64,000 bases of DNA, from assembly GCA_956465555.1 (NCBI GenBank), contig OY101121.1, positions 334,722 through 398,721 of the forward strand, given 5' to 3'. Under the pieces are notes generated by a model. That model was not told where the DNA came from, searched no databases, and worked only from the letters and a program-made list of their open reading frames with translations. The DNA comes from Nitzschia sp. pyKryTriq1 (taxonomy: Eukaryota; Bacillariophyta; Bacillariophyceae; Bacillariales; Bacillariaceae). A program made the translations under genes and the position numbers. Position 1 is the first letter of the stretch, and the number at the start of each line of letters is the position of its first letter. Shown here piece by piece: positions 25,420 through 63,994 of the stretch.

Positions 25420-26682
25420 ATGATTGAAACAATTGTAATGGAGCTGATAAACGATCAAGCGAAATCGTTACGGATTCTTTACGAAACCAATCTGGATTCA
25501 CCAGCATCCTCGCTAGTAGAGCAAGGAAATCACGACGACGCCGAGGCTGATGGTGAGACTCCTCCACCGAGCGAAGTCGATGTTTCCAGTATTGTATTTC
25601 TTCTGGGTGTTTTCATTTTTATTCTGTAAGTAGTGTTAATTTCACCACCCTGTCCTCTTTGTTCTCGTCAACTTGCTAATATCGTCCGCTGCCTTATTTT
25701 ACGCCCTCTGACGACGAAAATTATTAAGTCTCTTTTCGGTCCTCAAATACTGGATCTGCGAGGGACCCATCACAAGGCGTCAGCGACGGAGAGCACGAGA
25801 AGCTCGAAAACGGTTGATTCGAGAACAGGTGGTCTTCAAGGTGAGAAATTAAAATTCGTTACTGTAGTAGTCACCAGCAACACACCGCGACCATGCCTCT
25901 CACCCCGCCCCTCTTCTTACGTTCATGGTCACCTGCTGCAGACCGTGATCAAAAAGGAAGGAATGCACGAGCATGCAGATATTAATGAAGCAGAAAGTGG
26001 TGAAACGCTTTCTATGGGCGATGAAGATCATCATGAAACGGAAGCTACTAACACTGCTAGTAGGAGAACAGCAGATGACGACGAGGAGGAGCAGGGAGGA
26101 TTCGTTCATCGTTATTGTCGACAAAAGACGAATTTAGAGATTTCCACTAGCCAGCACAATGGCGACGACGGGGGGAACAGCCGCATGGAATGTCAGATAT
26201 GCCTAGCCGATTTCGAAGTCGGAGATAAGATCTGCTGGTCAAATAACCCCGAATGCGTCCACACATTTCATATTGGTTGCTTGGAACCTTGGCTCATGAA
26301 GCATGACGAGTGCCCGCTATGCCGGTGCAAGTATCTAGTCCCACAAAAAAAGGAGCCTCCGTCCGAAATGGAGACATATGATCCCAATGCTCAGAGGACA
26401 TCAGAGATTACCCGTCGTGTTGTCGCGGTCTTGAGTCTTCTTTTCTTTTTCCGGCGTATTACTACAGTCCAACAAACACGCCAGGACCAAAACAACGATG
26501 AGGAAGAAATCGATCGGGTACCCGAAATATCAGGAGAGGACCAAATTACGATCAACGATGACGACAACCCTCCTTCACCAAATATGATACCATTAGAGGA
26601 TGTATCGGACTGTTCACCTACCGAGGAAATGGTGGAACCCTCAGATATTGAAAGGGGCGACACAACAACATCGTCACGATAG
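25420..26682 (+). CDS. RING-H2 finger membrane protein 1 (family member, three exons)
   Basis: Exons 25420-25625, 25729-25840 and 25942-26682 (introns 103 and 101 bp, GT-AG, phases 2 and 0), 352 residues. Order: short acidic N-terminus; one membrane helix split by intron 1 (SSIVFLLGVFIFIL then LFSVLKYWI); a basic helix ending at intron 2 (RRQRRRAREARKRLIREQVV FK); an acidic linker; a RING-H2 domain, CQICLADFEVGDKICWSNN followed by PECVHTFHIGCLEPWL and DECPLCRCKYL, with all eight C3H2C3 zinc ligands; and a long acidic tail. Probable membrane-anchored E3 ubiquitin ligase. The only member of the family on the plus strand. Confidence 0.85.
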
Positions 26683-26815
26683 AACAAGAGACGCCAGGAG
26701 ACCCATATTGTACGGCTGAACATTTTGAAGGCTAATCAAATTTAGATAGCTACTCTAGAGTGAAGCTGTCACCCACCTCGAGTTATTCCCTGCAAGAGAC
26801 CTGTCGTGCTACGTA

Positions 26816-27517
26816 TTAGACACCCGTCTCAAAGCGCTCGTTGTCGGCTCGTCGCATAACATAGATAAAACCTCGCGTTGAAGTATCTTCTTGCCGCCGC
26901 GCATACAATATCCGGAATTCATCATCTAAGTAGACATGCTCCCATAGTCGAATTTCCTTGTTGGGTTCAAATTGGATTTTAGGCCCTAATGGGATCACCC
27001 CAGCCAATTTGTTGCCGACGCTTTCAAAGGCAATTGCCATGGTCGAGTCGTTAACAATGGAGGGCGACGCACGTAGCTCGCCGGCAACTGGAGGAAAATC
27101 GATCCGCAATATGTTTCTCGCGGCGCCATTCACAAAATCGACATCTTGGTACACATCTCCAACAAAGGGCCCCAACTTCCCCGAACTGGGCGCGGCGGGT
27201 TCAAAGTTCGTCCAGAGCATCTTCCAAAATCCAGTCATTTTGGGGACATTCCGCACGGGGCGGGGCGTAGGATTACAAGCTTCCAACTGTTCACACAACG
27301 AAGCAATCTCTTGTTCCAACTCTCGCGGAGTATCAATACCATTCTTGGGAGCCTCTTGGATCCGATCTTGAAGTTGCGACAAGAGTTCCTTGGCGTTGGA
27401 GGAAGATCGCGGAGAAATCGAAGAGGGAAAAAAGGGGAACTGAAAGCTGTGGGTCAAGGCACAAGTTGCTAAAAGCAAAATGTAGCTAAATGCCTGGAGA
27501 GACTTACATGTCATCAT
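26816..27517 (-). CDS. PAP/fibrillin-domain protein, plastid-targeted
   Basis: Start at the ATG pair at 27517/27514 gives 233 residues. The N-terminus is a signal peptide (SLQAFSYILLLATCALTHS) followed directly by FQFPFFPSS, the Phe-led transit peptide typical of diatom plastid import. The mature part matches plastid lipid-associated proteins: an N-terminal helix (ELLSQLQDRI), then MTGFWKMLWTNFEPAAPSS, PFVGDVYQDVDFVNGAARNI and a C-terminal strand set ending RGFIYVMRRADNERF. Fibrillins coat plastid lipid bodies and thylakoids and aid lipid or quinone traffic. The exact subgroup cannot be told. Intronless. Confidence 0.85.
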   Translation of the reverse strand: MMTCKSLQAFSYILLLATCALTHSFQFPFFPSSISPRSSSNAKELLSQLQDRIQEAPKNGIDTPRELEQEIASLCEQLEACNPTPRPVRNVPKMTGFWKMLWTNFEPAAPSSGKLGPFVGDVYQDVDFVNGAARNILRIDFPPVAGELRASPSIVNDSTMAIAFESVGNKLAGVIPLGPKIQFEPNKEIRLWEHVYLDDEFRILYARRQEDTSTRGFIYVMRRADNERFETGV

Positions 27518-27909
27518 GACACTCGTAATAATAAACTGTCTTTTCCAACAATGGGATAAACAGCATCGGCACCAGCAGTGATAAGCGCCGTGATGCAGAT
27601 GAAGCAAGATCGTTGTTCAGAATTAATAATAAGTGGTCGGTGGTCAGTCCTTGCGTGCGCGTGCGTGTCGGCGGCAAAAAACGAAGACAGTCAATTAGAG
27701 TCAAAAGAGTCGTTTGTCCAAAAGGCAGTGGCGGCTGGCTCGGTGCTCGGTTCGAGTCAGTCAGCCAGCAGTCTCCGTTTCCCTTTGTTCTCTCTGCTCT
27801 AACTACTGGTCAGTGATCGCCTTCATTCGAATATGTAGCTAGAACTGGTGAAGCTAACATGCGCCTACTCTATGCTGGTCTGAGAAGAAGGCTTCTTTGT
27901 TGGCTTCGT
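27518..27909. other. Intergenic upstream of the fibrillin gene
   Basis: Separates the fibrillin start from the DUF1415 stop, both on the minus strand. No gene or repeat of note seen. Confidence 0.5.
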
Positions 27910-28881
27910 TCAGGGGCCCCCACTTGTATATTCGTCATCACTCGCCGCGGGCTCCAGGCATCGATTCCATAAATCTCGCAGTTCCTCTACAGTCTTTGAC
28001 AACAAGACTTGTTCATTGTGCTTTCCAATTTGTTGAGTTGCTGCCTCCCCTGCGGCATCGACGACCCGAGCAGATACCAAAGTGACTGTTGGATGGGGCG
28101 ATCGCTTTTCAAAGTGCAAGGATTCTGGCTCCCCTTCGAAGGACCACTCGGGGTGAAAAGGCGCCACAATGACTGTATCCAAGAGTCCCCATGTCTCTTC
28201 CAAGAGATCAAACCAATTAAAAAAGTCTCCAAAGGCCTTCATCCCGGATCGTTCGGAATCGACAAACACAACAAAAAAAATGGCTGCCGATTCAATGGAT
28301 TCTGGTTGTTTGCCCAGAAAGTCTTCAAAACGACGGCCCACGTCGTCCACCAATGCATAATAAAACTCATCCGAAGCATTGTCCGTTATACTATGCTGCT
28401 CTTGATCCACCAAGAATATCTGCAGAGCTTGTGCAGTGGTCAAGGATGCTCGCGCCCACGGGCAAAGTTCCAATGGTAAAACAAAATTCTGACACCAGGC
28501 CCAAGTCTGCTGGACTGCCAACGGTAGTTCATGGAGTGCCATCGATTTTCCATGTTGCTCCCAGTTTTGAGATTCCGCATTGTACTTCCATACTACAATG
28601 GGGGGTCTCGCGCGCCGCATTTCAATGGAGGGATCATTCTTGTTGTTGTTGCCCTGCCCACCATGATTGCCATGATGATGATCATTATTTTTCGACGACT
28701 GCCGTAACTGGTGGAGCCACGGCGAAACGTGACGAGACAGATGTGATCTCGAGTATTTACCAACCGATGGAATCAAATGAAACGCTTCATACATTGGTGC
28801 CCAGAATGCCAGAATGATCATCAACCCACCGACAGCGACATCTCTTGCTGATCGAGAAAGAAACGCCGATGATTTCAGCAT
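27910..28881 (-). CDS. DUF1415 family protein with N-terminal signal/anchor
   Basis: 323 residues from ATG 28881. The N-terminus has a hydrophobic segment (VAVGGLMIILAFWAPMYEAF) and a following HLIP, perhaps a signal plus plastid transit peptide. The rest fits the DUF1415 pattern: WAWCQNFVLPLELCPWARAS, then AAIFFVVFVDSERSGM with FGDFFNWFDLLE, then the strongly conserved APFHPEWSFEG and EKRSPHPTVTLVSARVV. The family is widespread in bacteria and algae; its biochemical function is not known to me. Intronless. Confidence 0.85.
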   Translation of the reverse strand: MLKSSAFLSRSARDVAVGGLMIILAFWAPMYEAFHLIPSVGKYSRSHLSRHVSPWLHQLRQSSKNNDHHHGNHGGQGNNNKNDPSIEMRRARPPIVVWKYNAESQNWEQHGKSMALHELPLAVQQTWAWCQNFVLPLELCPWARASLTTAQALQIFLVDQEQHSITDNASDEFYYALVDDVGRRFEDFLGKQPESIESAAIFFVVFVDSERSGMKAFGDFFNWFDLLEETWGLLDTVIVAPFHPEWSFEGEPESLHFEKRSPHPTVTLVSARVVDAAGEAATQQIGKHNEQVLLSKTVEELRDLWNRCLEPAASDDEYTSGGP

Positions 28882-29579
28882 GATGGTGCTGGTCTTAGTT
28901 CTTATCCTTCTCGTTGTTTGTCAATTCAAGCTATCGGCAGCGGGATGGCATGGAATTCTGAGCACGACTAGAGATATAGAGATGTGAAGAAAGTCAGCAT
29001 AAGAATAGTTTGGTCTCCAGCCACCGCTCCTGCAGCAACTTGCGGTCTTCGCATCATTATTGTAGAGCCCAATCTTGAGATTTTTGGATAATATTTTGGC
29101 GGGAGAAAAATAAGCCGCGCATATCAGATTCCGGTATATGTCCGGGTTGTTACAGTATTTTTCGTTTGTCCGATCGTCGCCCGTTTCTTGTTCGGATGGG
29201 TCATCCTCATCCTCATCTTCATCATCAGTCGGTCCGCCAGTCGTCACACACGCGACGAGCAGCTGAAATAGTACATCATCAATCATCATAGAAAAGTAAT
29301 AGTGGAAATTGTTATATTGTGTCTTTAGAGATACTTATTGGATACTCGTACAGGTAGATGTCAACATGGATGCTCCGTGCATCCGCCTTTAGATATAGTA
29401 AAAGTGGCAACATGTATAAGTAGAGATAGTCGACACCAAGGAGTTGTGGAATGATTATTCTTAGACTGTCGTACTGTCCTGGTGGACTGGTCACAACCTC
29501 TCTCTATATCTACTAGAGACAGGCCATAGTGGTCATTGTTTTGCTCTATGAGATAACCTTGTAAAAATTTTCTTTATTC
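28882..29579. other. Intergenic between two minus-strand genes
   Basis: A 122-codon open frame (28921-29289) begins with ATG but has no recognisable features beyond a Asp/Glu run. Near 29500-29522 lies TCTCTATATCTACTAGAGA, one of the recurring CTCTACTAGAG-type inverted repeats. Nothing else seen. Confidence 0.4.
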
Positions 29580-30497
29580 TTATGGCGAATTCTCTGGGGG
29601 GATCCACTTTGAGAATAATTCCTTGTTTCGAACGTCATATTCACAGGGGTCGTCTCGATTGGCAAATTCTTCGTCCCCGGTTCCCAGTAGAAGCCACTCG
29701 GCAAAGAAAGCCACATTTTCGGGACTATCCAATGCCCCGCTGGGTGGAGGGCGTGCACGGCCATGTTGTTGTTCGTGGTCTACTGCTACTACTACTTTGG
29801 CTTTCATATCCCGAAAATTCTCCACCGCCGGCATGGAGTCTTTTGAGGCTTCTCGAATCACACCTTGCATAGGAGTGTCCACGACCCCAGGCTTAAAACT
29901 TCCGACTCGGACCGTTCCACCATCCAAATGTACAAACTCCTTGTCCATAGTTTTGAAGGCTTGATAAAACGCAGCTTTGGATATCCCGTAGACCGACCAG
30001 CCGACTGGAGGTGGACCGTGGGCGGCACCAGAGCTCACGTGCAATATACGACCTGCCGTAGTAGAATCGGATAAATAGGGATGCAGGGCTGTCGATAGGA
30101 GAATCGGACCTTGCACATTGACCAGAAATGCCTTGGTAAGTTCGTCTTGTGTCACATCGAGAATCGATTTGATGGGATCGATAGTGCCTGCACTATGCAC
30201 CAAAAATCGTAGACGTTTCTTCGATTCGGAAGAAGAGGAGGAAGAATATTGTTCCACTTGTTGGAGAATGGTGTTTCGTCCCTCTTCGCTGCCAATATCG
30301 GCTGCCACGGCCACGAATTTTGGATTGTCCTCGGCGACGTCTTGTTGCTGAATGGATCGAGACACCAATAACACCTTCTCAATAAAAGGAAACGTGGCAA
30401 TTTTATCGGCAATGGCTTTTCCAATGCCACTCCGTCCACCCGTCACCACAGCAAGAGCGGGACGAGAATCCTTGATTGTATACCGCGAAAAGGACAT
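29580..30497 (-). CDS. Short-chain dehydrogenase/reductase (sepiapterin/benzil reductase-like)
   Basis: 305 residues from ATG 30497. Rossmann cofactor motif VVTGGRSGIGKAIADKIA, NAG-equivalent VHSAGTIDP, catalytic Ser in HVSSGAAHG and catalytic pair YGISKAAFYQAF (Y-x3-K). The segment FKPGVVDTPMQGVIREA is close to sepiapterin reductase and bacterial benzil reductase, which place MQ..IR after the PG motif. All catalytic residues are present, so an active NADP(H) carbonyl reductase is likely. No targeting signal is evident. It shares a 520-bp divergent promoter region with the Mpv17 gene. Confidence 0.88.
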   Translation of the reverse strand: MSFSRYTIKDSRPALAVVTGGRSGIGKAIADKIATFPFIEKVLLVSRSIQQQDVAEDNPKFVAVAADIGSEEGRNTILQQVEQYSSSSSSESKKRLRFLVHSAGTIDPIKSILDVTQDELTKAFLVNVQGPILLSTALHPYLSDSTTAGRILHVSSGAAHGPPPVGWSVYGISKAAFYQAFKTMDKEFVHLDGGTVRVGSFKPGVVDTPMQGVIREASKDSMPAVENFRDMKAKVVVAVDHEQQHGRARPPPSGALDSPENVAFFAEWLLLGTGDEEFANRDDPCEYDVRNKELFSKWIPPENSP

Positions 30498-31021
30498 GTT
30501 CACATGCAGCTATAACTCTCACGAGCGCGGTGGTCAAAGATTGTTCTTGTTGATTTCTGACCCCAGATCGTCCGGATCTTCCAGAACTTCAGAGAGTAGT
30601 CAAACGTTTGCGGGCCAAAGGAGTATGAACCTCTCTCACTTTTTCAATGGAAGAGGCAATGAAAGACGAACTGAAGTACGGTAGAGGTACTACCAGGGGT
30701 CCTTTGTGATCTCTTCATCATTGCTTTTTTCTTCTTGGGTGCGTTGCGGGTGCGAAGAAGAAAATCAAAAAAAAAATCTTTTGGTCCTCCGCTCGCGCCA
30801 CATCGCGCACGTTTGTCCATCGCCCGTCGCTCGACGCGATGACGTTATTTTGCGTGGCGAAGCGAGAGCGAATGCGATCGACGGTGTTTCGAAAAAAAGA
30901 ACAAAAGCTTGATCTTGAATGCGGATCTTTTTGTCCTCTTCCTTTGCTCGAGTGTCACCATGACTACCTCTTTTGCATTATTGCTTGTCATCAATATCAT
31001 CATTGAAGACACTCATATGCG
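30498..31021. other. Divergent promoter region, SDR / Mpv17
   Basis: GC-rich patches with repeated CGCG and TCGCGC words (30780-30880) and one TGACGT core near 30840. No gene seen. Confidence 0.45.
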
Positions 31022-31025
31022 ATGA
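31017..31025 (+). promoter_or_regulatory. Minimal uORF overlapping the Mpv17 start codon
   Basis: ATG CGA TGA at 31017-31025 is a two-codon upstream frame whose stop overlaps the main ATG (31022). A ribosome that starts there must re-initiate or back up to reach the main frame, so it may damp translation. This is inference from sequence only. Confidence 0.45.
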
Positions 31026-31831
31026 AGGTACTCTCCTCCTTACACAACAGAAAGGTTGCTGCTTGCCTCTTTTTCCTTGCGGTAGGACCCGGTCCTCAGG
31101 GCGGGGGGACGACGACGACGGCTCTGGCATTTCAGCCATCACCTACGCTTTTGAATTCGGTGGTCGGAGCTGCCGACCACTTTTGGCGGAACTCTCCTTA
31201 TTTGGCAGCCGCATTGACGTGTGGTGTCAAGGCATCGGCTGCAGATTTGGTGGCACAAAGACGTCAAGAAGCCGTCAATACCAGCGACGACGATGGTGCG
31301 GCTGCCGCCGTGGCAGAAGTGGCCATTTCCTCCGCCCCTCCTAGGATGGACCTGAAACGAAACTTTGCCTACATTGTATATGGTTCCGTCTACCAAGGAA
31401 TGGCCCAAGAATATATCTACAATCACTTGTATCCTGTCTTTTTTGGATCTGGAACGGACGTCCTGACGGTTCTTAGTAAGGTCCTTTTCGACTTGTTGGT
31501 ACAGACCACTCTCGTTACACTTCCAATTGCGTACATGAGCAAAGCAATCATCTATCGCTACAGCTTTCGAGAAGCTATACGACGGTACTTGGATGACATT
31601 CGAAACCATGGATTGTTGACAAAATACTTTTTACTGTGGGGCCCGGTGCAATGTTTGACGTTTAGTATTGTCCCCGAACACTTTCGAGTGACCTTTATTG
31701 CTTGCATCTCCTTCTTTTGGCTGATCATCTTGTCGACTATTGCCTCCAAGACTCCGGTAGTAGGAAAAGTCGTGAGTGCGGACAAGGAATGTTTGCTTGA
31801 GGATGGTCAAACATGCCGAATTGAGGGTTGA
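31022..31831 (+). CDS. Mpv17/PMP22 family membrane protein
   Basis: 269 residues. The N-terminus is a signal-like segment (VAACLFFLAVGPG) followed by TALAFQPSPTLL, an AF-x-P site compatible with plastid targeting. The Mpv17/PMP22 domain covers about residues 50-255: FWRNSPYLAAALTCGVKASAAD, the helix YIVYGSVYQGMAQEYIYNHLY, FDLLVQTTLVTLPIAYMSKAI, and the family signature region KYFLLWGPVQCLTFSIVPEHFRV with the closing helix FFWLIILSTIASK. Usual W-P-x2-Q-x2-NF is changed to WGPVQCLTF. Family members form small channels in peroxisomal, mitochondrial or plastid membranes. Confidence 0.9.
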   Translation: MKVLSSLHNRKVAACLFFLAVGPGPQGGGTTTTALAFQPSPTLLNSVVGAADHFWRNSPYLAAALTCGVKASAADLVAQRRQEAVNTSDDDGAAAAVAEVAISSAPPRMDLKRNFAYIVYGSVYQGMAQEYIYNHLYPVFFGSGTDVLTVLSKVLFDLLVQTTLVTLPIAYMSKAIIYRYSFREAIRRYLDDIRNHGLLTKYFLLWGPVQCLTFSIVPEHFRVTFIACISFFWLIILSTIASKTPVVGKVVSADKECLLEDGQTCRIEG

Positions 31832-32124
31832 TGATGTTCCTTGGGTCTTCTTCTTCGCATCATATGTATGTGGGAAGTTGTTATGTTGTTTCACTTTATC
31901 CTGTTGTTGATCCCGATCCAATACTGCAATTTATACAACAAAGTGCATCATTCCTAGTATAGTGAATGGATCTTGACGGGTGTTGTCTTTTTTTCAATGC
32001 TGATGTAGTTTCATGGAGCCTCTTTGAGTGTACAGTACGGGTGTATAGTCGCTATGTAGTCACGTTCATGCCATTTTTTTACTACGATAGCGTTATCATG
32101 TTTCCATGTTTCTAGTTACCACTC

Positions 32125-37742: not shown

Positions 37743-38078
37743 ACTCCATGTTTTAGAAGACAAGTTTTGCCGAGATATAGACATCATCAAATATACTAAT
37801 AAACACAGCCTATTTATTTACTAAAACATTGAATTATTTTCTCACTCTTTGGCGAGATGCCTTTCTGAAACAACTCTCATGATGTCTCATGTGCAAGAAG
37901 CACCATTTCATAGTTACATGATGTTGTCGTTAGACGATCAAAGAAGAAATTTCGATTATTGAGGGAAAATATGGCTTGACAGACTAAAAACTCACAACTC
38001 ACATTGCTCGATAAGTGACATTTCAAAAGACTGCAATCAAATATTAATAACAAAAATAAAAATCATCATAATGCAAAG
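37743..38078. other. Intergenic between convergent genes
   Basis: AT-rich, no gene or repeat seen. Likely 3' UTRs of both neighbours. Confidence 0.5.
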
Positions 38079-44906: not shown

Positions 44907-46316
44907 TCAACTCGTGGACTCTTCAGGAGGAGAGTTTGGGTCCCTAGTAGTACTGCCGTTGCTCCTGCCAATAGTACTAGTAGTAATGACCTCCCCGTCG
45001 TCCGCGTCTGGTGAAGTGGTGCTCTGAAGCCCATCGCTATTGGAAGGGGTCGAACTGACGTTGTCGTCAATACCTGATAAATCGTTGTCAAGTGCAGTAG
45101 ATGTGTCTGGCTCTACTCTGGAAGGAAGCTGAATGGTCGAAGACGACGACAAGATAGTAGTCGCGGGTGGAAGATCCTCCTCCTCGTCGTGGTCTTCGTT
45201 TGGGTAGGATTCTTGGGGATCCTCTGCCCTCGATCGAGCCATATGCATACCCACCTGAAACTCGGTCTGCATAAATATGCGGTTGTGGGCATTTCGATAA
45301 AGACGTTCAATACCTGCGATCAGTTCCACAAACTCAGCGTCATCCATCAAATTCTCGTTCCGAGGAGGCCGACGGTGGGTATTATTAGTCACACCGCGCT
45401 CCAAGTTTTCTATCTCGTCTGATCCGAGTGGTGCTGGAACACGAGGTCGCTGCTCTTCCATTTCATGATCATCTGCAGCTTGTTCCATTCCAAGATAGGG
45501 TTTTCGGCAAAAGGGGCACATATCGTTCCGAAGTAGCCACAGCTCGACGCAGTCCCTGTGGAAGTGATGGGAGCATTCCGGATTTCTCGACCAGCAGATC
45601 TTGTCACCCACAGAATAGTTTTTCAGGCAAATAGCACATCCCGGTCGTGATGAATGATGTCCCTCATCATGGTCGTTCTCATCCAAGTCATCATTGTTTT
45701 CAATAAGTTCGTCGTCATGCTCGGGCCCACCAAGATTCTCCTCCTTCCTGGGCGGGGTTTCGGGCGGGGCTGCATCGTCATCATCTAATACCTTCTCGCC
45801 ATCCAAGTTCCCAGTAGGATCGAAACCAATAATTCGAGGAAGGACAATGTCTGATTTTGGCTGCTGTATTATCATAATTCCTGTTATTTTGGACGATTCA
45901 CCAGCTCTTACAGTTTTGTGTATCAGTGTTTGATGGACATATTCTTGCCGTCGTCGTTTGGAGTTTTGTAAAAACTGTTGCGCGTCTGAAGATGATAATT
46001 CTTGCTCGGATCCACCATGTACGGAATTCAAATGATTATTCTGGTGTGCTGCTGCCGCTAATAGGTGCGGACCAAGTTGCAAAATCCACCGCCACTCGTC
46101 CCAATCTTGCATGGAAGGGCTGCTTCTGACTAAATTGTCGTTATTACCAGTACGAATACCATTGTACGGCGGATGCTGAAGCCCAGCTCCTAGACCTCGT
46201 CCGGGCCCGTGCATAAATGCCGCAACCGTCGTGAATGCAAGTCCATGGCTGGTTGGGATGGCCCATATGGGGAGCGCTTCTCGTTCTAACCTTTGCTTTC
46301 GGAGGCATCGGATCAT
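44907..46316 (-). CDS. RING-H2 finger protein 2 (family member, divergent N-terminus)
   Basis: 469 residues from ATG 46316. The family basic helix is present (SKRRRQEYVHQTLIHK), then a long acidic linker and the RING-H2 domain: CAICLKNYSVGDKICWSRN, PECSHHFHRDCVELWL, DMCPFCRKPYL. All eight zinc ligands are visible. A ~190-residue Glu/Asp/Ser-rich tail follows. Unlike the other members, no membrane helix is visible before the basic helix, and neither family intron is present in this frame. Either this copy lost them or an upstream exon encoding a helix lies above 46316 and I did not find it. Probable E3 ligase. Confidence 0.8.
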   Translation of the reverse strand: MIRCLRKQRLEREALPIWAIPTSHGLAFTTVAAFMHGPGRGLGAGLQHPPYNGIRTGNNDNLVRSSPSMQDWDEWRWILQLGPHLLAAAAHQNNHLNSVHGGSEQELSSSDAQQFLQNSKRRRQEYVHQTLIHKTVRAGESSKITGIMIIQQPKSDIVLPRIIGFDPTGNLDGEKVLDDDDAAPPETPPRKEENLGGPEHDDELIENNDDLDENDHDEGHHSSRPGCAICLKNYSVGDKICWSRNPECSHHFHRDCVELWLLRNDMCPFCRKPYLGMEQAADDHEMEEQRPRVPAPLGSDEIENLERGVTNNTHRRPPRNENLMDDAEFVELIAGIERLYRNAHNRIFMQTEFQVGMHMARSRAEDPQESYPNEDHDEEEDLPPATTILSSSSTIQLPSRVEPDTSTALDNDLSGIDDNVSSTPSNSDGLQSTTSPDADDGEVITTSTIGRSNGSTTRDPNSPPEESTS

Positions 46317-47089
46317 GATCCTGATTTATCAGCAATCGGAAGCACGTCAAAGCAGTTAGTCACCCCCCGCAGTCGCCGCAGAACACAACGTGCAAAAGAA
46401 AATTTTATTCATTGAGCGAGATCTCCTACGATTATAAGAAAGCATTGTTCTTTCTATTTCAGATTCGGGAAACTTACAAAAGTAATATCAGGAAGGAAAA
46501 AGAACAAATGATGAATACGTCTAATGCTGTGATTTCCACCATGATAATGATGATGATGGCGCTGTCAATTGCTATGTACGTAACCCCCCTGAATTATGCT
46601 GTTTGTGTTGTTGAGTCTTCCTTCTTGCTTGTATGCATCTGCATCGACTTGTTAAACCACAGGAGATAGTTCTGGTATTGTTGTCATGGACAATCGAATA
46701 ATCATCATCACGACGTGTGCGTCTCGCTCGGCTTCCGATTTTGGGTTTTCGGGCTTCGCGGTTTTTGCGCGAAATAGGTACGTACTCTGGCGCTTTTGTA
46801 CCGGTAATACTACCTGGTACTTATTGTAGTGACCGGTACGCGCACGGGTACTTGTACAAGTACCGTACAAGAACGTACTGTACCGGTACCTGTACGCAAT
46901 AGCATGCGTAAACAACTGTATTTTTAAAAAAAAAATAATACTGACGGTCGCGCGACTGACTGGACTAATGGGGCGTCTGTCAGTTATCGGTATCGTACGC
47001 GTACTTGTACAGAAGTATTAGTCTAGAATACTATTTTGCACAGTCTCTAGTTTTCAAACGAAGCAAAAAAGCCACAAGGAAGAAGGTCG

Positions 47090-47104: not shown

Positions 47105-47139
<35 letters not shown>

Positions 47140-47420: not shown

Positions 47421-47460
47421 AGCACCGGGTGGAGACCTGTATCCATCGTCCTCTGCGTGG

Positions 47461-51255: not shown

Positions 51256-51276
51256 GAATGTTGCGAAATAAACTAT

Positions 51277-52457: not shown

Positions 52458-55413
52458 ATGAGCAGCGACGACGTTCCTACTCCAGTCGTCGTCGGCAACG
52501 ATACCTTCCCCGCCGCGACAGCTCTTCCACAAGTCGTCACTGCCCGAATTGGGCCTTGTGCACTGGGAGCAGCGTGCACAGCTAAGGACCAAGAGTTGAG
52601 TGACCAGTATCGTTGTTCCTTTTGTAACAAACAATTGCATGGATTCAGTAGTGAATGCAGCGTCGCAAAGAACCCCAAGGACTTCCGGAACGGTGTGATT
52701 TGTAAGGAACAGCCGTGCCTTACTGAAGAAGCAACATCGGTCTTGGATGAATCGGGTCGTACGGATGGAGCGGTAAGTCATTGTTTTGTTTTGCATGGTC
52801 ATTCTTTGTGACGAAATCATTTAAGTGGAACCAATACAATGGCATCACTCACTCCACTTTATGATATGTATCATCCCCTTGTTCAAATCTCAGTCTATCG
52901 CAGCAGCTGCTGGTCTGCCCAAGTTTCTGTGGGACACACAAGGGCCCAAACGCAAGCGACCTGCGAATCTGCCCAAGGTTCGCCGTAATCGATACACCAA
53001 GGAGCAAAAGGCGATCATCTTGACTACCTTGCACGATACACCGGGAGCAAAACTTCCAGACATTGCGAAGCAGTTCAATGTTCCAGAAGGAACCGTCCGT
53101 GGCTGGTTTGATGACGAACGCCGTCAAAAGGCAGCGGGCGCGGAAGAGATTGGCGATATCAGTGATCATATTCTTGATCCACCCGAAGACGGGCGCTTGG
53201 CAACCACACCCGCGTCCACAGCAGGCGTCGAACCAGAAAAGGAAGATGTGGCACCTGAAATTGACGAAAATCCCAAGAAGAGACGTCGTCATCGGTATTC
53301 AAATGAAGTTAAAATTCAAGTCATTCTAGCCCTCGAGACGCGCCCCAACTCCACGTTGAATGAAGTGGCCAAGGAATTCAATGTGGCCCCAGGTACTGTG
53401 AGAGGATGGCGCGAAGAATCGGACAAGATCCAGAAGGCAGCCATGGAGAATCGCCGTGTAGGCGCCAAGGCCAATCCAAGCAAGGATCCTTTGCGTCGCG
53501 TATGGGAGGCTATTTTGAGTCTCTTTGAAAAGAACTCTCGGCTCCCGCAGCAACAGCGTCTGAGTGTCAATGTGGCCGTCGTGAAAACAATCGGCAAGCA
53601 AGCCCGGGACATCTTGCTCGAAAAGCACGCCCAGGAGCCTTTCTTGACTGACGATGAGGTGCAAGGCATGCAAAAGTTCAAGGCTAGTGAAACCTGGGCA
53701 CGAAAGTGGGCAAAGGATCATCAAGTCATGTCTACCAAGCCCGATGCAGTATCCCAAATCGCATTTGCGCAAAACAGACTGACCACACTGCAGAACATTG
53801 TGGCGGAATATATCCCCGAGCGAGTCTATACATTGACTACGACGTCCCTATTCTATCGCGTCTTGCCCCATCGGACGTACGTGTCCAAAGTCGAGCAAAC
53901 GCGGGTTCGAGCGTGCAAGGGGCTCAAGTGCAAGGATCGCCTGACATTATACTTGTGTACCAACGAAAGTGGAACAGAGAAGCTTCCCATTACGTGCATT
54001 GGCAAGTATGAGAATCCGGCCTGCTTTCAAGTGGCCGCTCAAAAAAACCTGCCTTACCTTTCCCAAAAGCAGGCTCTGACAGATGCAGGGACCTATCAAC
54101 GTTGGTGGCGAACCGTATTTTTGCCTCATGTTCGCAGTCAGTTGGAGGAAGGCGAGAAATGCTTATTGCTGGTCGACGACACTGGCATGTCTATGACCGA
54201 GCTCTTAAGGGATCCCACTGGGCAAGTTCGTATTGAAGCATTACCACCCAGTCAATCAAATACCCTGCCCCTTCCAGCACAATCCAAAGAAGCAGTCGCT
54301 GCCGGAACGTCGTCTTCAGGACAAGCAAACCAACCTCCCACTCTCCCTCCATGTCAACCTCTCGAGTTCGGTATTCTGGAAACTATCAAGCGTCGGTACC
54401 GATACCGTCTCCTGCAAGAAGTCATGGATGCCTTTGACGAACGCGCCATGCGACGAAGGGTTGCCGCGAGCGCCGACTTTCCCATGCCGTCCCGAGGCTT
54501 GCGCGAAGGAAACCTGGCCAATGTTGGCGATGGTATGAGGCTGTTGGAATCCATTTGGAATGAAGTCGCTACGACTACCATTGTCAAGGCCTGGCAACGC
54601 ACCAAACTTCGATCAAAGTCCAAGGAAGAGATTCCAGCCGTCCCTCCCGGTCAACGAATCAAGAGTGAGAAGCGACAAACAACGAGAGAAAAGAAACAGC
54701 TTGTCAAGGATCTGTACACATTTCTGACAAAACACGAATCCAAGGATTTTACCACTGACGAGGGGGCTAACGACCTGGAAGAGATGATCGAGAAACTCAA
54801 GAATTGCTTTCTGTACACTGACGGAGAAGTTATTGAAAGTAAAGAAATGATGGAATCTCTAGAAGATTGGATCGTCCTCGAAGATAGTCAGGGGATGGTC
54901 TCGTTGTTTATGGAAGAAATCAAGACCGAAATGAACATTGAGTATCTCGTGGGCCTCAAGGAGCCTTTGGAAGCAACCGTTCCCGAAGCCGAAGAGGGCG
55001 AAGACCCCCAGACGGAACCTCCGCTTACCGAGACTCAAGACGGAAAAAATGGCAAAGAGTCTGCTAGAGAGCTTGATCTCGAGACGGCCCTGGAGTTGGC
55101 CTCGACCATCAAGTCAACGGCTTGCAAGCTCTTCGCCCATGGGGACATCTTGGGGGAATTGGCGGTCAGACTTGACGACGCGTCCGACTCTGTCTTTCGA
55201 CTGCTCCGCAAACAAAAGGAACTTGCGAACGCCAAACAAGAAGCTGACAAGGCGAAGGTCCAAGCCAAGAGCAATAAGGCGAAAGCTCAGGCGGCTGCTT
55301 CGGAGGAAGCAGTGGCCAGTGTCATGGAAGAGGATACCGCCGAACCAGAGACATCAGAACTTCATATTGAAAACGTCGAACTTCCGGATGATATGGTAAT
55401 GGAGAGTGTCTAG
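52458..55413 (+). CDS. Domesticated pogo/CENP-B-type transposase protein, two exons
   Basis: Exons 52458-52772 and 52894-55413 (121-bp GT-AG phase-0 intron), 944 residues. The N-terminus has a Cys/His cluster (CALGAACTAKD, YRCSFCNKQLHGF, C later) that looks zinc-binding. Two psq/CENP-B-type helix-turn-helix units follow: NRYTKEQKAIILTTL...IAKQFNVPEGTVRGW (about 137-180) and RYSNEVKIQVILAL...VAKEFNVAPGTVRGW (about 239-285). The DDE_1 core (about 415-615) aligns with TIGD/JERKY proteins: SLFYRVLPHRT, KDRLTLYLCTN, CIGKYENPACF, LLLVDDTGMS, QPLEFGILETIKRRYRYRLL. The first catalytic Asp (usual DET) is Thr (TTT) and the third (usual MDQG) is Glu (LEFG). Probably a host DNA-binding protein, not a transposase. 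Confidence 0.85.
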
Positions 55414-55457
55414 TGCGATCTCTGCCAACGCATGAATTTTAAAAAGTACAGTTTATG

Positions 55458-56385
55458 TTATTGCTGTGGGATTTCTTCTCTCGAGTCGGGATTCTCGACG
55501 TCGTATACATCATCGGAAGGATGCTCCGCTGGGTACGCCAAAACGGGTGATTCCGCCAAAATACCGGCTGGCACTCCGCAACCACCACTAGGAGGATCAA
55601 TGTCAGCACTATCCATGGAAATTATGTAAGCAGCCCTGCAGCACGGGCACTCGTCATGTTTGTACAGCCACCGTTCTATACACAGATGATGAAACACGTG
55701 TTGGCACTCTGGATTCTGAGACCAGCAAATCTCATCTCCAACTTCGTAGGGTATCAAACAAATTGCACAGATCCAAGGTTCTTGAGTGGAATCTCTAGTC
55801 GCTTCCAAATCATCAGGATCAGAAAGAACCAAGTTGTCTTTGATCCTTCGCATAGACTTTTCATCACCCGATTGGCTTTTGTCTTCCTCTGGACTATTAT
55901 GTTCGTGCTCTTCGTCCACATCGCTACTAATGCTCGATCTGCGAGTACTTCCTTCCTCACATGTGTTTTCTGTTACTGACGACTTTGAAATGACATGCTT
56001 CACGACCAATGCTTTCTCTATGTATCTCTTTCGCTCTTCTCGAGCAATCCGTCTGCGTTCGCGCCGTGATAGAGCTGTTTCCTCGGCTTGTTCATCATCA
56101 TGTTCGGGAGGAATCCGAGTCACCTTCTTTCCAAATGCGATCAAACACACCACAATTCTAAAAATAAAACGACAGCATGCAAAAATCAGCAAGATATGAG
56201 TATTCTTGGTCAGATGGTATAGCAATGGCAAAGCTGGGAGATTGATTCGGTGGCACTTCTTACGTGAACACAAATACAAGAGAGCTGATCAAACATATCT
56301 GCGTGGCTTGGAGCGGCTCCTCCTCGACCCATTCTGAAATGTGAGGCTTATCAACGTCGTGAATGTAGTCCTGCTGATTCTGCAT
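55458..56385 (-). CDS. RING-H2 finger membrane protein 3 (two exons)
   Basis: Exons 56385-56264 and 56157-55458 (106-bp GT-AG intron, phase 2), 273 residues from ATG 56385. The membrane helix is split by the intron (LQATQICLISSLVFVF then TIVVCLIAFG). The basic helix follows (SRRERRRIAREERKRYIEKA LVVK), then an acidic Ser-rich linker and RING-H2: CAICLIPYEVGDEICWSQN, PECQHVFHHLCIERWL, DECPCCRAAYI. All eight ligands present. The second family intron (after LVVK) is absent, the frame running straight on as HVISKSS. The 5' leader carries a CTTT microsatellite. Probable membrane-bound E3 ligase. Confidence 0.85.
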
Positions 56386-56437
56386 TGTGCGTTGAATGAT
56401 TAATTTCCTTCGGTGAACTGCGAGCGTCGATTGATTT

Positions 56438-56465
56438 TTCTTTCTTTCTTTCTTTCTTTCTTTCT
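56438..56465 (+). repeat. (CTTT)n microsatellite
   Basis: About seven CTTT units in the 5' flank of RING-H2 gene 3. Confidence 0.9.
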
Positions 56466-57395: not shown

Positions 57396-57412
57396 CCCCC
57401 CCCCCCCCCCCC
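57396..57412 (+). repeat. Poly-C tract (17 C)
   Basis: Uninterrupted C17 in the 3' flank of RING-H2 gene 4, the second such tract in the window. Confidence 0.9.
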
Positions 57413-57670
57413 TCCACTTGTAGTACGTAGTAAGGCGAGCCTTCGTGTACTACTAGACTATTCCCTGTGAGTTCCTTCCAGTCATGATGTATCACGCAAG
57501 TGCTATGTATGGACACGAACCGAGGTCACCATCATATTTGACAGTAAAAAAGTAGTCTAGATCTAGTCTCTAATATTATTTCAGCAGCGATCCTGCATAA
57601 GAAGGACCATATACTACGTCGAGCAACAACTCGGAGGTAGAAGTATTAGTATCCAGCCGTGCTGTCCTGC

Positions 57671-58717
57671 TCATACTTGTTCATCGTCAGCCGCATGATG
57701 AGAATGATGACTACGACTTTCGCTGTCCGTGACATTCTCTTCCGACAAAACATCATCCCCCTCTTCTTCAATGATCACAATCGGATTTGTCATGTGCGCA
57801 GACGAGACTGCTGCACTTTCGTCTTTTTTCATATTTTCCTCCTCCGCCGAAGGATTAACAAGATATTCTGCTCGACACACTGGGCACTCCGAGTGCTTAG
57901 CGAGCCAGGCAACTCCACAGGTGGCATGGAATCGGTGGAAGCACTCCTTGTTATTGGACCAGCAGATACTTTCACCGTTTTCATAGTCACAGAGGCAAAT
58001 TGGACATGACCGAGATTCATCGAGTTCATCTCCGGCACCACCACCACCAGAACAATGCAATAACAAGTTCGACTTCCTTCTTTCAGTCCTTTTAGTAGTC
58101 TTTCTAGTTTCCGTTTTTCGTCCCTCTTCAACGTCATCAATTATTGGACCCTCCACCACCGACAAGACTTTCTAAATGGTGCGCACGCGGGAATAGATGT
58201 GAGACTACGTGATTTCCAAACAAAGGAGACACAGCCACCACGAGAACCATATCGACTACTCACCTTTAGAACTAGCATCTGTTCGATGGATTCTTTCGTC
58301 CGAATCTTATTGTGACATGACGCGTTGTGGGGGTGCTGGTCACCTCCGTGCCTAGAAAAATTGGAGCTTCGGTGGTTGTAGTAACAGGAGAGTCTCATCA
58401 TAATCAAGCAAAGACTATGATTATTTCAAGATAATGTGAGCAACAACCCTGGTGCATATGACATTCCTTCACTGTCCCATTTCAACGTACCTGAAAACGA
58501 TGAATACAATGAATAATATGATTGTGATCATGTCATTGCTGCCCGAACCACGTGTGGTGAGATCAGCAGAATAGGGGTCATTCGCATAGGGATTTCCATA
58601 CGTCCCAAACCCCGCTGTCGTCCCTACACCCGTCGTATTTGAGAGGGAGGACGAGCTGTCGTTTCCCCTATTGGAGTAAACATCTCGGACAAGGGTTCGG
58701 AGATGTTGTGATGACAT
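57671..58717 (-). CDS. RING-H2 finger membrane protein 4 (three exons)
   Basis: Exons 58717-58491, 58393-58264 and 58171-57671 (introns 97 and 92 bp, GT-AG, phases 2 and 0), 285 residues. A Ser/Gly/Tyr-rich N-terminus (GFGTYGNPYANDPYSADL) precedes the membrane helix NDMITIILFIVFIVF, which the phase-2 intron splits from RLSCYYNHR. The helix TKESIEQMLVLK ends exactly at intron 2. Exon 3 has a Lys/Arg-rich linker and RING-H2: CPICLCDYENGESICWSNN, KECFHRFHATCGVAWL, SECPVCRAEYL, all ligands present. Intron positions match genes 1, 5 and 6. Confidence 0.87.
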
Positions 58718-60211
58718 GCTGTTGTATTGCCGTGGTTTGTTGCTAAAACGAAGTTGGTCAGTGATCGAGATTGGTCGGCTTGGCTTACTGTGAGACGAGG
58801 GCGATTCTTGTTGATGCAGGAGCAAATCGAGTTTCGTCTTTTTATTTCAATTCTTTGTCAGGAGACGAGACCCAACTTCTCATACCGTAAGTCTTCTGAT
58901 CATCATCGAAAGGGAAGCCGCCGAATGAATAATCTGATTGTGAGATTCATTCTCCATTCATTCCTTGGGCTCGTCTCCGCGCGTCCGTCCGCGAGATTTG
59001 CTTCTTCGTCGATCGTGATCGCGTGTTTTGAGAATGCGAACTCGTCGCTCGAGAGCCATCAGCTTCTTTGGTTTTTTTTGCCATCGATCATGAGTGCACG
59101 TACCGCGTACCAGGTACTTGTAGGGCGGGGTCGGTCTGCTGGTACTGTACCGGTACCATTTTACCGGTACTAATGGCCGTGGGGCTATAAATAATTGCTC
59201 TGACGTCAGTCAAGCATTTAAAGGGACTCGAAGCTGCACATTCAAAAGTCGACGAATATAAGTCCATCGATAAAAATGAAAATGAAATTACATACTAAAA
59301 AATGTCTGAACTTTCGAATTCAATATTCTCCACCACGCGCGCACGAGCTACAGATTTCGCTTCAACCGACCATGTACTGGATTACTCGAGAAGGCATTAT
59401 GCAGCTCGCGGATGTCTTGTCCAGAAAAGTGTTGGGGCTTCAATTGCTTGATGTGGTCCTTCAAGAGGTTGAAACGATCAATTGACGTAGTTTTGAGAAG
59501 ATGGATGAGCTGGATGAAGGTCTAGTAGTAGAGTCAAACTAACTAGTAGCTACAGGCTTTTCAATTCAGGCAAACTGAATATTATGATTTAGAGACTAAC
59601 GATGAAGGAATGAACCAGAACAGTATCCAAGACCGGAGGCCTTACGGATGACTGTCTTGGGAAATACCAGAAAGAGTAAATGAGTTCCGAGTAAGCGGTA
59701 GATACGATTTGCCGGATCGTGGTTGGACAGACCAAGACTCGACTCACCTGGTCATCTGACTGTTGGACGGACAGACAGAATGCTTGACTGTACATACGGT
59801 AGCGAAAACAAGAGGCGAAAAAAGGTCAAAGGTCATGGCAACAGCTCAACACTCTAGAGTAGTAAACTGTCTAATTTAGCTACTACTGCAACTTGACAGT
59901 CGAGAGCCATGAAGTAATAAGGCAAGTGGAAATACGCCAAAGAACTATGATGCTATGAGAGTTGAGACAGTTGGTTTCGATGGTTATTGAACACCAGTGC
60001 TGAGAACGTGATACTTATTCTCGCCAGCCAATCTGCTGAGGAAAACCAAATGGGATCAATCACGTTTTCCTCATTGAGAAGGGTCTCGGAACCAATCCGC
60101 GTACAAGAAGCCTGCCAAGTGGACTGGGGTGTCCTTGTACCGGTGAGAATGAGTTGCTAAACTTACGGTATGCCACCGCCACGATATTGCCAATATCCTC
60201 TACTATCATCA
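58718..60211. other. Intergenic between RING-H2 genes 4 and 5
   Basis: GTAC-rich at 59100-59170. TATAAATA (59186-59193) and TGACGTCA (59201-59208) lie close together, but the plus-strand frame after them (59276-59485) has no protein character. No other gene seen in 1.5 kb. Confidence 0.5.
59186..59208 (+). promoter_or_regulatory. Orphan TATA-like box plus CRE-type palindrome
   Basis: TATAAATA and TGACGTCA are 7 bp apart with no recognised gene on either side within 500 bp. Either a remnant promoter, a non-coding transcript start or coincidence. Confidence 0.3.
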
Positions 60212-61246
60212 TCAACTCGTGGTCATCGTCAGACTGGCTGGTTGCTCCTCGTCGACGGCTCTTTCACCATCCTCGTCACCTCCAGTTTCAGAGACTGAAG
60301 AAACAGGGGGATCATCGGTTGTATTACTGACTTGCGCCGCAATCTCGCTTTCGCCTTTCACGTCGGCGGCTCCTTCAAAAAGGTAATCAGCTCTGCATAT
60401 CGGACATTCGCTATGCTTTGCGAGCCACGCGACACCACAGGGCGCATGAAAAAAATGGGAGCATTCTGGATTGCGAGACGAGCAGACCTCCTCTCTATCA
60501 ACATATTCACAGAGACAAATGGCACAAACCTGCGACTCCTCGTCCGATGGACAAACAACTATTATCGAATCCTTTCCTTCCAATCCCTCAGTGGCTGGCG
60601 ATGGTGTGGCTGGATTTTCGATATCCACGTCTACGCCACCCTCATTTCTAGGTGTTGTCGGTGAACCGCACAAAATTGTCTAGAGAAGTAAAGTAACAAC
60701 ACAAACATGCGAGCAGAAAGCGGTAAGGAGGAGAATGGCCACGGGGAAGAATAATGCGACGAGCGACACCGCCTACCTTGATAATGATGTTGCTTTCGAT
60801 TTGTTTTTGTCTCCGCAATGTTTTCTTTTCCTCGCTGGCACGCCGCTCCGTCTCGTTGCTAGCATCATTCAGTTGCTGCCGAAAGAAAAATATTTTCAGC
60901 AAAATAAGACAAGCACTTATGTTTTGTAATGACGAGGAGCAGCATGGACATCGTGAGGTATAAAAAAACGTTGCTGGACATCACATAAAATGGCTATTAC
61001 ACGCCAACAAACATACCTGAAAAGGCCGAAGAGAATGAGCATGGACATCACTGTCTCTCCAGGAGCATTGGCATTCTGGCTACTCGCATAATTCTGAGAA
61101 TAATGATGTCCTGGATCAAACACCGGTCCAGTCACGTTCCCCCCGTCGGTATCATTTCTATTTTGCAAGGGACTAACGCTTATCGGGATTTCAATTTGAT
61201 ACTCTGCTCCAGTTGCTCGTCGATGTCGTAGCTGTTCTGGCATCAT
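60212..61246 (-). CDS. RING-H2 finger membrane protein 5 (three exons)
   Basis: Exons 61246-61017, 60915-60777 and 60679-60212 (introns 101 and 97 bp, GT-AG, phases 2 and 0), 278 residues from ATG 61246. The membrane helix is split by intron 1 (ETVMSMLILFGLF then SACLILLKIFFF). The basic helix RRASEEKKTLRRQKQIESN ends as IIIK at intron 2. RING-H2: CAICLCEYVDREEVCSSRN, PECSHFFHAPCGVAWL, SECPICRADYL. The family ICWSxN is VCSSRN here, losing the Trp but keeping every zinc ligand. A short acidic Ser-rich tail follows. Confidence 0.87.
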
Positions 61247-62205
61247 GGCTGGTGATGGGTTGCAATCAGAGTTCGTAGCGAGAGTTGAATTGATACCTTG
61301 ATGTCGATTTTAAAATAATGCCGTTTGAGGTAAACTTATGAGAAATTCATGACGGTGTATTATTTTTTTTGTTTTTTCCAACATCTACTACCGGCAGGAG
61401 TACCGGGTACCGGCACTTTTTCTTGCAGTACTGACCGTACATCAAATGTACATGACATGAGGTAGTTACTAGACCAATAGAAAGGAATTCAGAGAAGGCA
61501 GGGCGAAGGAGACGCACTCCTCTGCCACAGATGATAGTACCATGCTGTACGTAGTTTTGTGGCCGGCGGCGAAGTCCACGAACATGGAATGCATCCAGAG
61601 GCCATAATACACGCAAGCAAAAGGAGAATGAAGCGAGCCTCTGCTCGCTGAATCAATCACAACTACAACAGTGTATCGAGATGATGGTGATGATGATTGA
61701 CGTGGACTCCTCCTCATTCCAGGGGTCAATTCTTTTTCGGGTTTTCTTTTTCTTTTTCCGGAACAATATTGACCTCTGCCTCATTCCCATCCGCCATCGT
61801 CTACGAAAATGGGGGGGGAAGAGGCGCAGCCGAGGGGGAAAGGAATCTCGCGATGATACGCTAGATGGATGATTTATTTCTAATATGTATTCGAACTAAT
61901 CGATTCGAAAGGTTCTGGTTCTGGATACCATGCGAGAAAGCAAAAGTTGCGTCATCTCATCGGAATTATTTATTCTCAAGCCGAGAGCGGGAGCGAGAAG
62001 ATGGCGAAAAAGCACCAATAACCAAAACACATCAAACATGCAACATGCAACTTTCAACGCTTTAGCCGAGAGGAGAGTAGACAACTAACGGTACTAAGAA
62101 GTACAAATGCTCCAAAGGCCTACAATACGTTTAATGTTTTGAGAGCTGCCGAGACGACAGTTGGTTTCAATCACAGTGGTATTATTCGACGAGATATCAC
62201 AAATA
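61247..62205. other. Intergenic between RING-H2 gene 5 and the small membrane protein
   Basis: Contains GAGTACCGGGTACCGGC near 61397-61413. Open frames here are short and without protein character. No gene seen. Confidence 0.5.
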
Positions 62206-62796
62206 ATGTTGTTGCTGTCATTTCGGACGACTCATTTGGCTTTGCCGCTACGGCGAGATGCTGCAGCAGCAGCCGCAAGCAGCTTGAGAACAAACAAGTT
62301 CTCGCAACGGTTCCGATCGACGATGACAGTGCCGCCAATGCCGTCCTGGTGTCCGGTTGGTGGTGGTCAAGGAACCGAGGGGCGAGAAGACTTCGTCTCT
62401 TCTTTTCAGAAGCCTCTGCCATCCCATCCTGGTATTAGGTATGATGAGAATGATAGTAATTCGTCTCCTCAGCACCCATACCTCCAGCACAAAGAAAGAA
62501 GTTATCGGACGGTGCAAATCCGAGGATTTCACTCGACAAGCCAACCGCAGATTGCTCCATTTCTTCCGGAAATCGTGATTGCAACAGGTATCATCGGTGG
62601 ATGGGTAGCCTACAGAGTAGGTCAAGGAAAACCACTGACCCCAGATGATGCGTTGGATGTCCAAGAGGCATATCGAAAGCAAGAGGAGGATCTTCGGAAA
62701 AGACAGAAAAATTGGCGAGAGAGCTCCAGGAATAGGAACGGACAACAGCAACCCAGCCGCCAATGCAGCATATCATATGAAACTTCGAAAGAATGA
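62206..62796 (+). CDS. Small single-pass membrane protein, probably mitochondrial
   Basis: 196 residues from ATG 62206, the first ATG in a frame open further up. The N-terminus is a mitochondrial-type presequence rich in Arg, Ala and Ser (LSFRTTHLALPLRRDAAAAAA, then FSQRFRS). One membrane helix, FLPEIVIATGIIGGWVAYRVG, is followed by a charged Pro/Gln/Arg-rich segment (DALDVQEAYRKQEEDLRKRQ) likely to form a coiled coil. No family recognised; the layout recalls accessory subunits of inner-membrane complexes, which is inference. It is the only plus-strand gene within the terminal RING-H2 block. Confidence 0.6.
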   Translation: MLLLSFRTTHLALPLRRDAAAAAASSLRTNKFSQRFRSTMTVPPMPSWCPVGGGQGTEGREDFVSSFQKPLPSHPGIRYDENDSNSSPQHPYLQHKERSYRTVQIRGFHSTSQPQIAPFLPEIVIATGIIGGWVAYRVGQGKPLTPDDALDVQEAYRKQEEDLRKRQKNWRESSRNRNGQQQPSRQCSISYETSKE

Positions 62797-63132
62797 ATAG
62801 GAGGGCACGGCTGAGCCAGTTTTGTCGTTGTTGCCGGCAATATTCAAAGTTAGGAGGATCGTTCACGGTAACAGTGGTAGTAGACTCTAGTAGATTACGA
62901 TATTTACATATTGCTGAATGCTTTCACGAAACGACTGCTGTACTGTCTCTCCTGGACAAATCAGCACTTTAATTTGTAACAAAAAATCTTCGACGCTCGG
63001 GGCGTTACCAGATTCAGAAAACTGCAACCAATTATAGTCGCACACTCTCCAAGCCTCCAAAATTCTCCGTTTCACTCACCAAGATACTATTGTTGTTTGT
63101 CTTGGTCAATATGTTCTCTCTATAAGCGGGCA
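62797..63132. other. Intergenic, convergent 3' ends
   Basis: No gene or repeat seen. Confidence 0.4.
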
Positions 63133-63994
63133 CTATTGTGCTTGTTGTCCCTGCTCAATATCTTGTTCCTCCGTTTCCTCCTCTGGTTCGACAAGGTACT
63201 CGTTTCGACAAATCGGACAATCCTCATGTTTCGCCAACCAAGCAATGCCACATGCTGCATGGAAATGATGTGGGCAACTTTGATTATTCGACCAGCATAT
63301 CTGATCCCCATTCTCATAGGGACATAAACAAATAGCGCACAAATCCATCCCACTCTCTTCATCGTCCCCCTCGTGTAGCACTAAATTGGATTTGGCCCTT
63401 TTCATTATCGAAATTGCGTTGTTCTGCTGGTCGGATCGGATCGTGTCGCTTGAAGTATCACTCTGACCAGCGTGGTCTGTTCCTTCGGATGACGATGCAA
63501 CCCACGACACATGCTGGAACAGCGACAAGAGATGTGGAAGACATCAATCACATTGAGCCAAGGAATTACCAAGTAGTCGTGGAATAAACAACGGCACAAC
63601 GGCCAGAAAGGGACTCACCTTCAGAATGAGCATTTTCTCAATGAAATCCTGCGTCCTCGTTTGTTTTTTCTTACTCGGTTCGGCTACAGGTGTCGGAGGT
63701 GGAGGAGGATCATTTCGGTGTTTAAAGTAATAATACACTCTCGCAGAGAGAAGAAATATTCTGTATCGTGTCATATATCGACGGTCATGAGAACAAGAGA
63801 CAAACATGATACGGGTAGATAGGTGAGAACTCTGTACTGCATTTGCCATAATGATGGGTCATTTGTATGATATCCAGGACAACCACCAACACTCACGTTA
63901 ATGCCATTGTCGCCCAACATAGCTTAAGGTTGACATCGGAATTGAGTTTCCAGTCACGTCCCATCGTACCCGTGTCCTCTGGCATCGATTCCAT
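63133..63994 (-). CDS. RING-H2 finger membrane protein 6 (three exons, near window edge)
   Basis: Exons 63994-63897, 63760-63619 and 63513-63133 (introns 136 and 105 bp, GT-AG, phases 2 and 0), 206 residues from ATG 63994. The frame is open to the window end, so the true start could lie beyond it. The membrane helix is split by intron 1 (NLKLCWATMAL then TIFLLSARVYYYF). A Pro run and the basic helix SKKKQTRTQDFIEKMLILK end at intron 2. RING-H2: CAICLCPYENGDQICWSNN, SCPHHFHAACGIAWL, DCPICRNEYL, all ligands present. The shortest member, with a 20-residue Glu/Gln tail. Confidence 0.83.

Follow-up and report, generated by a model that had tools for sequence, protein, structure and literature searches.

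Six RING-H2 genes and their introns

The genes described here lie in a 64,000-nucleotide stretch of DNA, the window, from the diatom Nitzschia sp. pyKryTriq1. The window spans positions 334,722 to 398,721 of contig OY101121.1 (C7:334722-398721) in assembly GCA_956465555.1, which holds 40.65 Mb in 20 contigs. Within it are six genes for RING-H2 proteins anchored, as predicted, in a membrane. Together they make up an old cluster, local to this stretch, within a larger class whose members are spread through the genome; many of the gene features they share are inherited with the class as a whole and are not a product of local copying. Positions below count from the first letter of the window.

Gene 1 (W1), 25420..26682, plus strand: 352 residues; exons 25420-25625, 25729-25840, 25942-26682
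RING-H2 core of gene 1, first to eighth ligand, 26191..26322, plus strand
Gene 2 (W2), 44907..46542, minus strand: 492 residues; exons 46478-46542, 44907-46320
RING-H2 core of gene 2, 45507..45638, minus strand
Gene 3 (W3), 55458..56385, minus strand: 273 residues; exons 56264-56385, 55458-56157
RING-H2 core of gene 3, 55638..55769, minus strand
Gene 4 (W4), 57671..58717, minus strand: 292 residues; exons 58491-58717, 58264-58414, 57671-58171
RING-H2 core of gene 4, 57875..58006, minus strand
Gene 5 (W5), 60212..61246, minus strand: 278 residues; exons 61017-61246, 60777-60915, 60212-60679
RING-H2 core of gene 5, CSS replacing CWS, 60395..60526, minus strand
Gene 6 (W6), 63133..63994, minus strand: 206 residues; exons 63897-63994, 63619-63760, 63133-63513
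RING-H2 core of gene 6, 63208..63339, minus strand

All six positions given by a first-pass annotation of this DNA hold RING-H2 genes that pass the Pfam cut-off. The zf-RING_2 (PF13639) scores run from 37.8 to 44.7 bits (42.9, 44.7, 37.8, 42.7, 42.1 and 40.7 for genes 1 to 6) against a threshold of 27.3. Genes 3 to 6 do occupy no more than 8.5 kb of the minus strand, but they cannot be called consecutive if the plus-strand open reading frame at 62203-62796, between genes 5 and 6, is a gene. That frame is unclassified and has no Pfam match; its start resembles a basic targeting-type stretch.

The gene models were spliced by hand from the sequence, and each yields one open frame. As a cross-check we used an automatic codon and splice-site model, which scores hydrophobic exons poorly. 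By hand splicing, all six genes have a predicted phase-2 intron of 76-157 bases inside the membrane helix. The first-pass annotation had counted five, and had described gene 2 as lacking the helix and both introns. That description falls. A missed first exon, 46478-46542 on the minus strand (MVEITALDVFIICSFSFLILL), carries part of the helix and a phase-2 gtaagt donor inside it, with the acceptor before 46320. In gene 3 the automatic model drew the identical phase-2 junction; in genes 1 and 6 it paired the same donor with a different acceptor, and in genes 2, 4 and 5 it missed the junction. We prefer the hand models because the six junctions fall at matching points of a continuous helix. All six models, membrane helix included, are offered for test.

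A phase-0 intron follows the Lys that ends the basic helix in genes 1 (after ..VVFK), 4, 5 and 6, where hand and automatic models agree in four of four. Gene 3 keeps the residues (ALVVK/HVISK) and has no intron there, as had been proposed. Nor does gene 2 have one at ..LIHK/TVRAG; the automatic model suggests a candidate intron one codon downstream, 51 nucleotides long, in-frame and stop-free, and so ambiguous. Of the polarity of intron loss that had been read from these genes, one half stands: gene 3 lost its phase-0 intron, because relatives both in the window and beyond it retain theirs. The other half, in which gene 2 lost both introns and the helix, does not.

The common plan of membrane helix, basic helix, linker, RING-H2 and acidic tail (the last in all six) holds, with a weak helix in gene 6. 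Judged by hydropathy and not by a dedicated predictor, five of the proteins have one clear hydrophobic helix towards the N terminus (best 19-residue value 2.61-3.16), while gene 6 is borderline at 1.57. Basic residues are more numerous after the helix than before it in every protein: Lys plus Arg in the 15 residues before/after number 0/4, 0/5, 0/3, 1/3, 0/3 and 2/3 in genes 1 to 6, the difference being least in gene 6. Each of genes 4 and 5 encodes a pair of N-glycosylation sequons N-terminal to the helix.

The RING is uniform. Ligand spacing is 2-17-1-2-2-10-2 in all six and in the closest paralogue, on contig C1; the [IV]C[WS]S-x-N signature is present throughout, as first noted. Eight ligands, an Ile, a Trp, a Pro and an Arg after the last ligand are invariant, and the last four residues we take to be those that contact the ubiquitin-conjugating enzyme (E2) or ubiquitin. 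Outside the RING divergence is strong, as had been said of the linkers and tails, but the linkers are not wholly different: genes 1, 3, 4, 5 and 6 have a K-[STD]-[NS]-[LI]-x-[LIV] patch 16-24 residues ahead of the RING. Of the related loci introduced below, L011 and L014 have the same patch, which the other 12 WS loci examined lack. In an AlphaFold2 model of the last exon of gene 4 (exon 3), blocks of the RING (residues 51-100) have mean predicted local distance difference test (pLDDT) values of 74-85, and a strand is drawn at the patch (residues 36-40) with low confidence.

An old cluster of a larger class

How unusual is such a cluster? PF13639 has 104 matches genome-wide at E <= 0.001, 103 of them over the curated cut-off, and this count is a lower bound for the genome. 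Six fall in the window, inside 37.2 kb. When 104 matches were placed uniformly, none of 20,000 simulations put six into 37.2 kb (the maximum was five), and only three of the 20,000 put four into an 8-kb stretch. Nor is this the only place with local duplication of RING genes: neighbouring RING-H2 genes lie less than 10 kb apart at 12 places in the genome, of which the window supplies three. The 19 kb of contig beyond gene 6 (L009, L010) contain no further RING that matches the pattern we used.

Relatives were sought by protein searches within this genome, and 40 loci were fetched; seven entries (L001-L007) duplicate or represent later loci and were left out of the modelling. The closest paralogue is L011 on C1, with a RING 72% identical to that of gene 4. 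With this C1 copy as query, the five best other matches in the genome are window genes, and gene 2 comes ninth of 39 rows. Outside the window, 14 loci with 15 RINGs have WS, or something close to it, ahead of the third zinc ligand. In this genome the WS-loop class numbers at least 20 genes, with 21 RINGs between them. One of its members, L020 (C14:864600-870000, minus strand), is a single 556-residue open frame with two WS-type RINGs. The exact codons for CWSxNxxC occur at nine places, namely five window genes, the C1 copy and three sites that are not PF13639 hits; a reversed control gave four.

The phase-0 intron had been read as a mark of common descent in a locally amplified family. For local descent it is no such mark. 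The same intron, at the end of the helix and nearest the RING, is found in 12 of the 14 other WS loci, on seven contigs (C1, C5, C6, C7, C11, C12 and C16), where the basic helix before it ends in K, R, M, F or L. L012 and L020 do not have it; an automatic phase-0 intron in L020 lies elsewhere and was excluded from the count. Among 19 modelled RING-H2 loci without the WS loop, five have a last intron of phase 0, ten of phase 1 and four of phase 2, and none of the five phase-0 introns sits at a comparable helix end, by eye. The position shared by 12 of 14 loci predates the cluster, and we reject it as proof of local descent. Intron positions common to neighbouring paralogues can be far older than the cluster they sit in, and need a genome-wide check before they are used in this way.

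The phase-2 intron in the membrane helix occurs outside the window in L011 (C1) and L014 (C6), and L020 on C14 has the donor with an acceptor that is unsure. In L016, L017, L018, L021, L025, L030 and L031 the helix lies within one exon (in L025 as judged from coordinates only), and in L013 the first exon is not settled in the model. This intron, the RING and the KSNLxL-like patch bear out common descent of the six.

Trees refine the picture. A RING-only tree has 34 rows and 55 columns, after L008, L022, L024, L033, L037 and L047 were dropped from 40 RINGs; RINGs off the pattern (L026, L027, L035, L040, L042, L044 and L048) are in neither tree. In it the 21 WS rows form one side of a branch with support 96/85, and the six window genes as an exclusive clade reach p = 0.051 in the approximately unbiased test (p-AU). 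A longer alignment of 20 rows and 85 columns, which includes the helix block, groups genes 4, 5 and 6 with the C1 copy (97/92), pairs genes 1 and 3 (89/90) and leaves gene 2 unplaced. On it, the six alone as a clade are rejected (p-AU 0.007), while the six plus the C1 copy (0.258), genes 4-6 without the C1 copy (0.365) and the six plus L011, L013, L014 and L020 (0.308) are not. On this longer tree 10 of 500 shuffles of the window label scored as low. Whether the window genes are each other's nearest relatives gets a mixed answer: genes 4-6 group with the C1 copy on the longer alignment, and the window label is unclustered on the RING alone. Local amplification of the family finds support in genes 4-6 only, with the C1 paralogue inside or beside their group.

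Amplification was not recent. In 33 of 36 RING pairs the synonymous sites have reached saturation, and therefore the amplification is old; a search of 55.3-64 kb for common repeats of at least 24 bases found none, and on these two grounds a recent event is rejected. Genes 4, 5, 6 and the C1 copy differ at 0.19-0.28 of nonsynonymous sites (pN) and 0.76-0.99 of synonymous sites (pS). Because of the saturation, the suggested contrast of nonsynonymous to synonymous rates (dN/dS) between RING and tail cannot be estimated.

The ancestral gene of the class would have had a basic helix ending at the phase-0 intron, followed by an exon for linker and RING. A later subfamily would then have carried a Cys in front of WS and, in its membrane helix, the phase-2 intron, and genes 4-6 and the C1 copy probably arose inside this Cys-WS subfamily by old duplication. 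Alternatively, separate WS members met by chance or have long been co-located, genes 1-3 having arrived separately. We consider this unlikely. It would fit with the rejection of an exclusive clade, with the scatter of window rows in the RING-only tree and with the absence of a common repeat from 55.3-64 kb. It sits badly with the kinship of genes 4-6 and the C1 copy, with the pairing of genes 1 and 3, with a clade of six plus C1 that is not rejected, and with clustering far beyond that expected of uniform placement.

Several points count against the reading of an old cluster within a WS-loop class, and against the models beneath it. The choice of WS rows was made by eye on the loop, whose columns also belong to the tree alignment, so the WS branch is not fully independent of that choice. 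The RING-only tree covers 34 of about 104 RINGs, and in it the clustering of the window label was matched by 133 of 500 shuffles. Well-supported branches are few, 4 of 31 with 55 columns and 1 of 17 with 85. Hand and automatic models disagree on three of the six phase-2 junctions and on the acceptor of two others; in L012, L015 and L023 we read the helix as coding, within one exon, where the automatic model spliced its sequence out. The gene 4 structural model has a mean pLDDT of 54.5.

Predicted function and known RING-H2 families

By far the most likely function of the six proteins is that of membrane-anchored ubiquitin ligases (E3s), to judge from matches to solved sequences and folds and from the signs of topology. 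The nearest solved sequences are E3 RINGs, the best being rice EL5 (1iym, E 6.4e-13). The folds nearest to the gene 4 model are also E3 RINGs, several of them solved with an E2; RNF12 is the best (1.3e-4), and the RINGs of RNF13 and RMR1 are among the matches. Taken together, the evidence makes it very probable that these are single-pass membrane E3s with a cytosolic RING, and that they form the densest cluster of a diatom WS-loop class.

Topology, ligase activity and substrates we infer from the sequence as follows. The N terminus would lie outside the cell or in a lumen and the RING-H2 domain in the cytosol, where it would bind E2~ubiquitin and hand the ubiquitin to nearby proteins. Targets are probably membrane or membrane-associated proteins, chosen, it seems likely, through the variable N-terminal segment, linker and acidic tail. 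The putative mark of the class is a longer loop with WSxN before the third zinc ligand.

The obvious comparison is with the ATL ligases of plants. Available passages of PMC3161093 describe ATLs with an N-terminal membrane helix, a RING-H2, a variable linker and tail, and a multigene family with tandem arrays, all of which recall the window genes. The plan of our six is that of plant ATLs; they are a lineage-specific form of a kind already known and not a new kind of system. The Trp three residues after the sixth ligand, also of ATL type, is invariant in all six. An extra thought is that diatoms evolved their own counterpart of the ATLs, in which the additional Cys (CWS) near the third zinc ligand could serve as a redox- or metal-sensitive switch of the ligase; we regard this as a long shot.

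Could they be true plant-type ATLs in a diatom? The order of parts is the same, and the best sequence match, EL5, is OsATL24 according to the consulted part of PMC3161093, but that match is one to a generic RING-H2. The same passages give the canonical ATL RING-H2 as 42 residues with 15 between ligands 2 and 3, and place a GLD motif in about 82% of ATLs; those of PMC5764321 report that 90% or more of ATL genes in angiosperms have an intronless coding sequence. The window genes, unlike ATLs so described, have 17 residues between ligands 2 and 3 and introns in the coding sequence in six of six, and a WSxN loop; a simple pattern, rather than a profile, finds GL[DNS] in none of the six between helix and RING. 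On exact spacing, GLD and the intronless state we reject ATL membership, which is very improbable.

Scarcely credible, too, are degenerate or non-catalytic RING proteins that serve as scaffolds: strong divergence outside the RING would suit them, but the eight ligands and E2-facing residues are invariant in the six, and pN among genes 4-6 and the C1 copy has stayed low though synonymous sites are saturated.

Two further families share some of these features. PA-TM-RING ligases (RNF13, ZNRF3, RMR1) also combine a single membrane helix with a cytosolic RING-H2, but Pfam at E 0.01 finds no PA domain in any of the six, and its absence excludes this identity. In the CTL (YEELL) proteins, a conserved helical motif before the RING carries a conserved splice junction, according to the accessible portion of PMC5764321, and the phase-0 intron at the end of the helix in our genes is its parallel; unlike the window genes, CTLs have no common membrane helix. 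Closer to home, ubiquitin ligases are named among the tandem duplicates of the diatom Seminavis robusta (PMC7335047), a likeness by description only, as the passages in question do not state the type of E3. When viral contigs were scanned with the six RINGs, a pattern matched in 11 stretches, none of them a relative by tblastn.

A literature search by title and start of abstract, outside subscription papers and preprints, turned up no diatom RING-H2 family of this kind, and the WS-loop class seems undescribed. Were the class to prove diatom-wide, it would amount to a large set of membrane E3s with a plan comparable to that of the ATLs, and an opening to study membrane remodelling in diatoms.

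Neighbouring genes

The closest neighbour of the cluster is an 862-residue open reading frame on the plus strand (52825-55413) that ends 45 bases from the stop of gene 3, the two being convergent. It matches DDE_1, CENP-B_N and HTH domains, and its middle 300 residues, used as a genome query, retrieved only itself. This looks like a single-copy transposase-like gene, perhaps domesticated.

Further upstream, 8960-12091 on the minus strand matches 7tm_3 and ANF_receptor, as in a receptor of class C type. At 21474-23812, also on the minus strand, two adjoining open frames both match Na_Ca_ex and EF-hand domains, and may be two genes or a single gene with an intron. In the genome as a whole, silicon-transporter matches number eight, seven of them at 873-885 bits and one at 451, which bears out its origin in a diatom. 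Four lie within about 41 kb on C1 (C1:275839-317295), near the C1 paralogue of the cluster at 340 kb.

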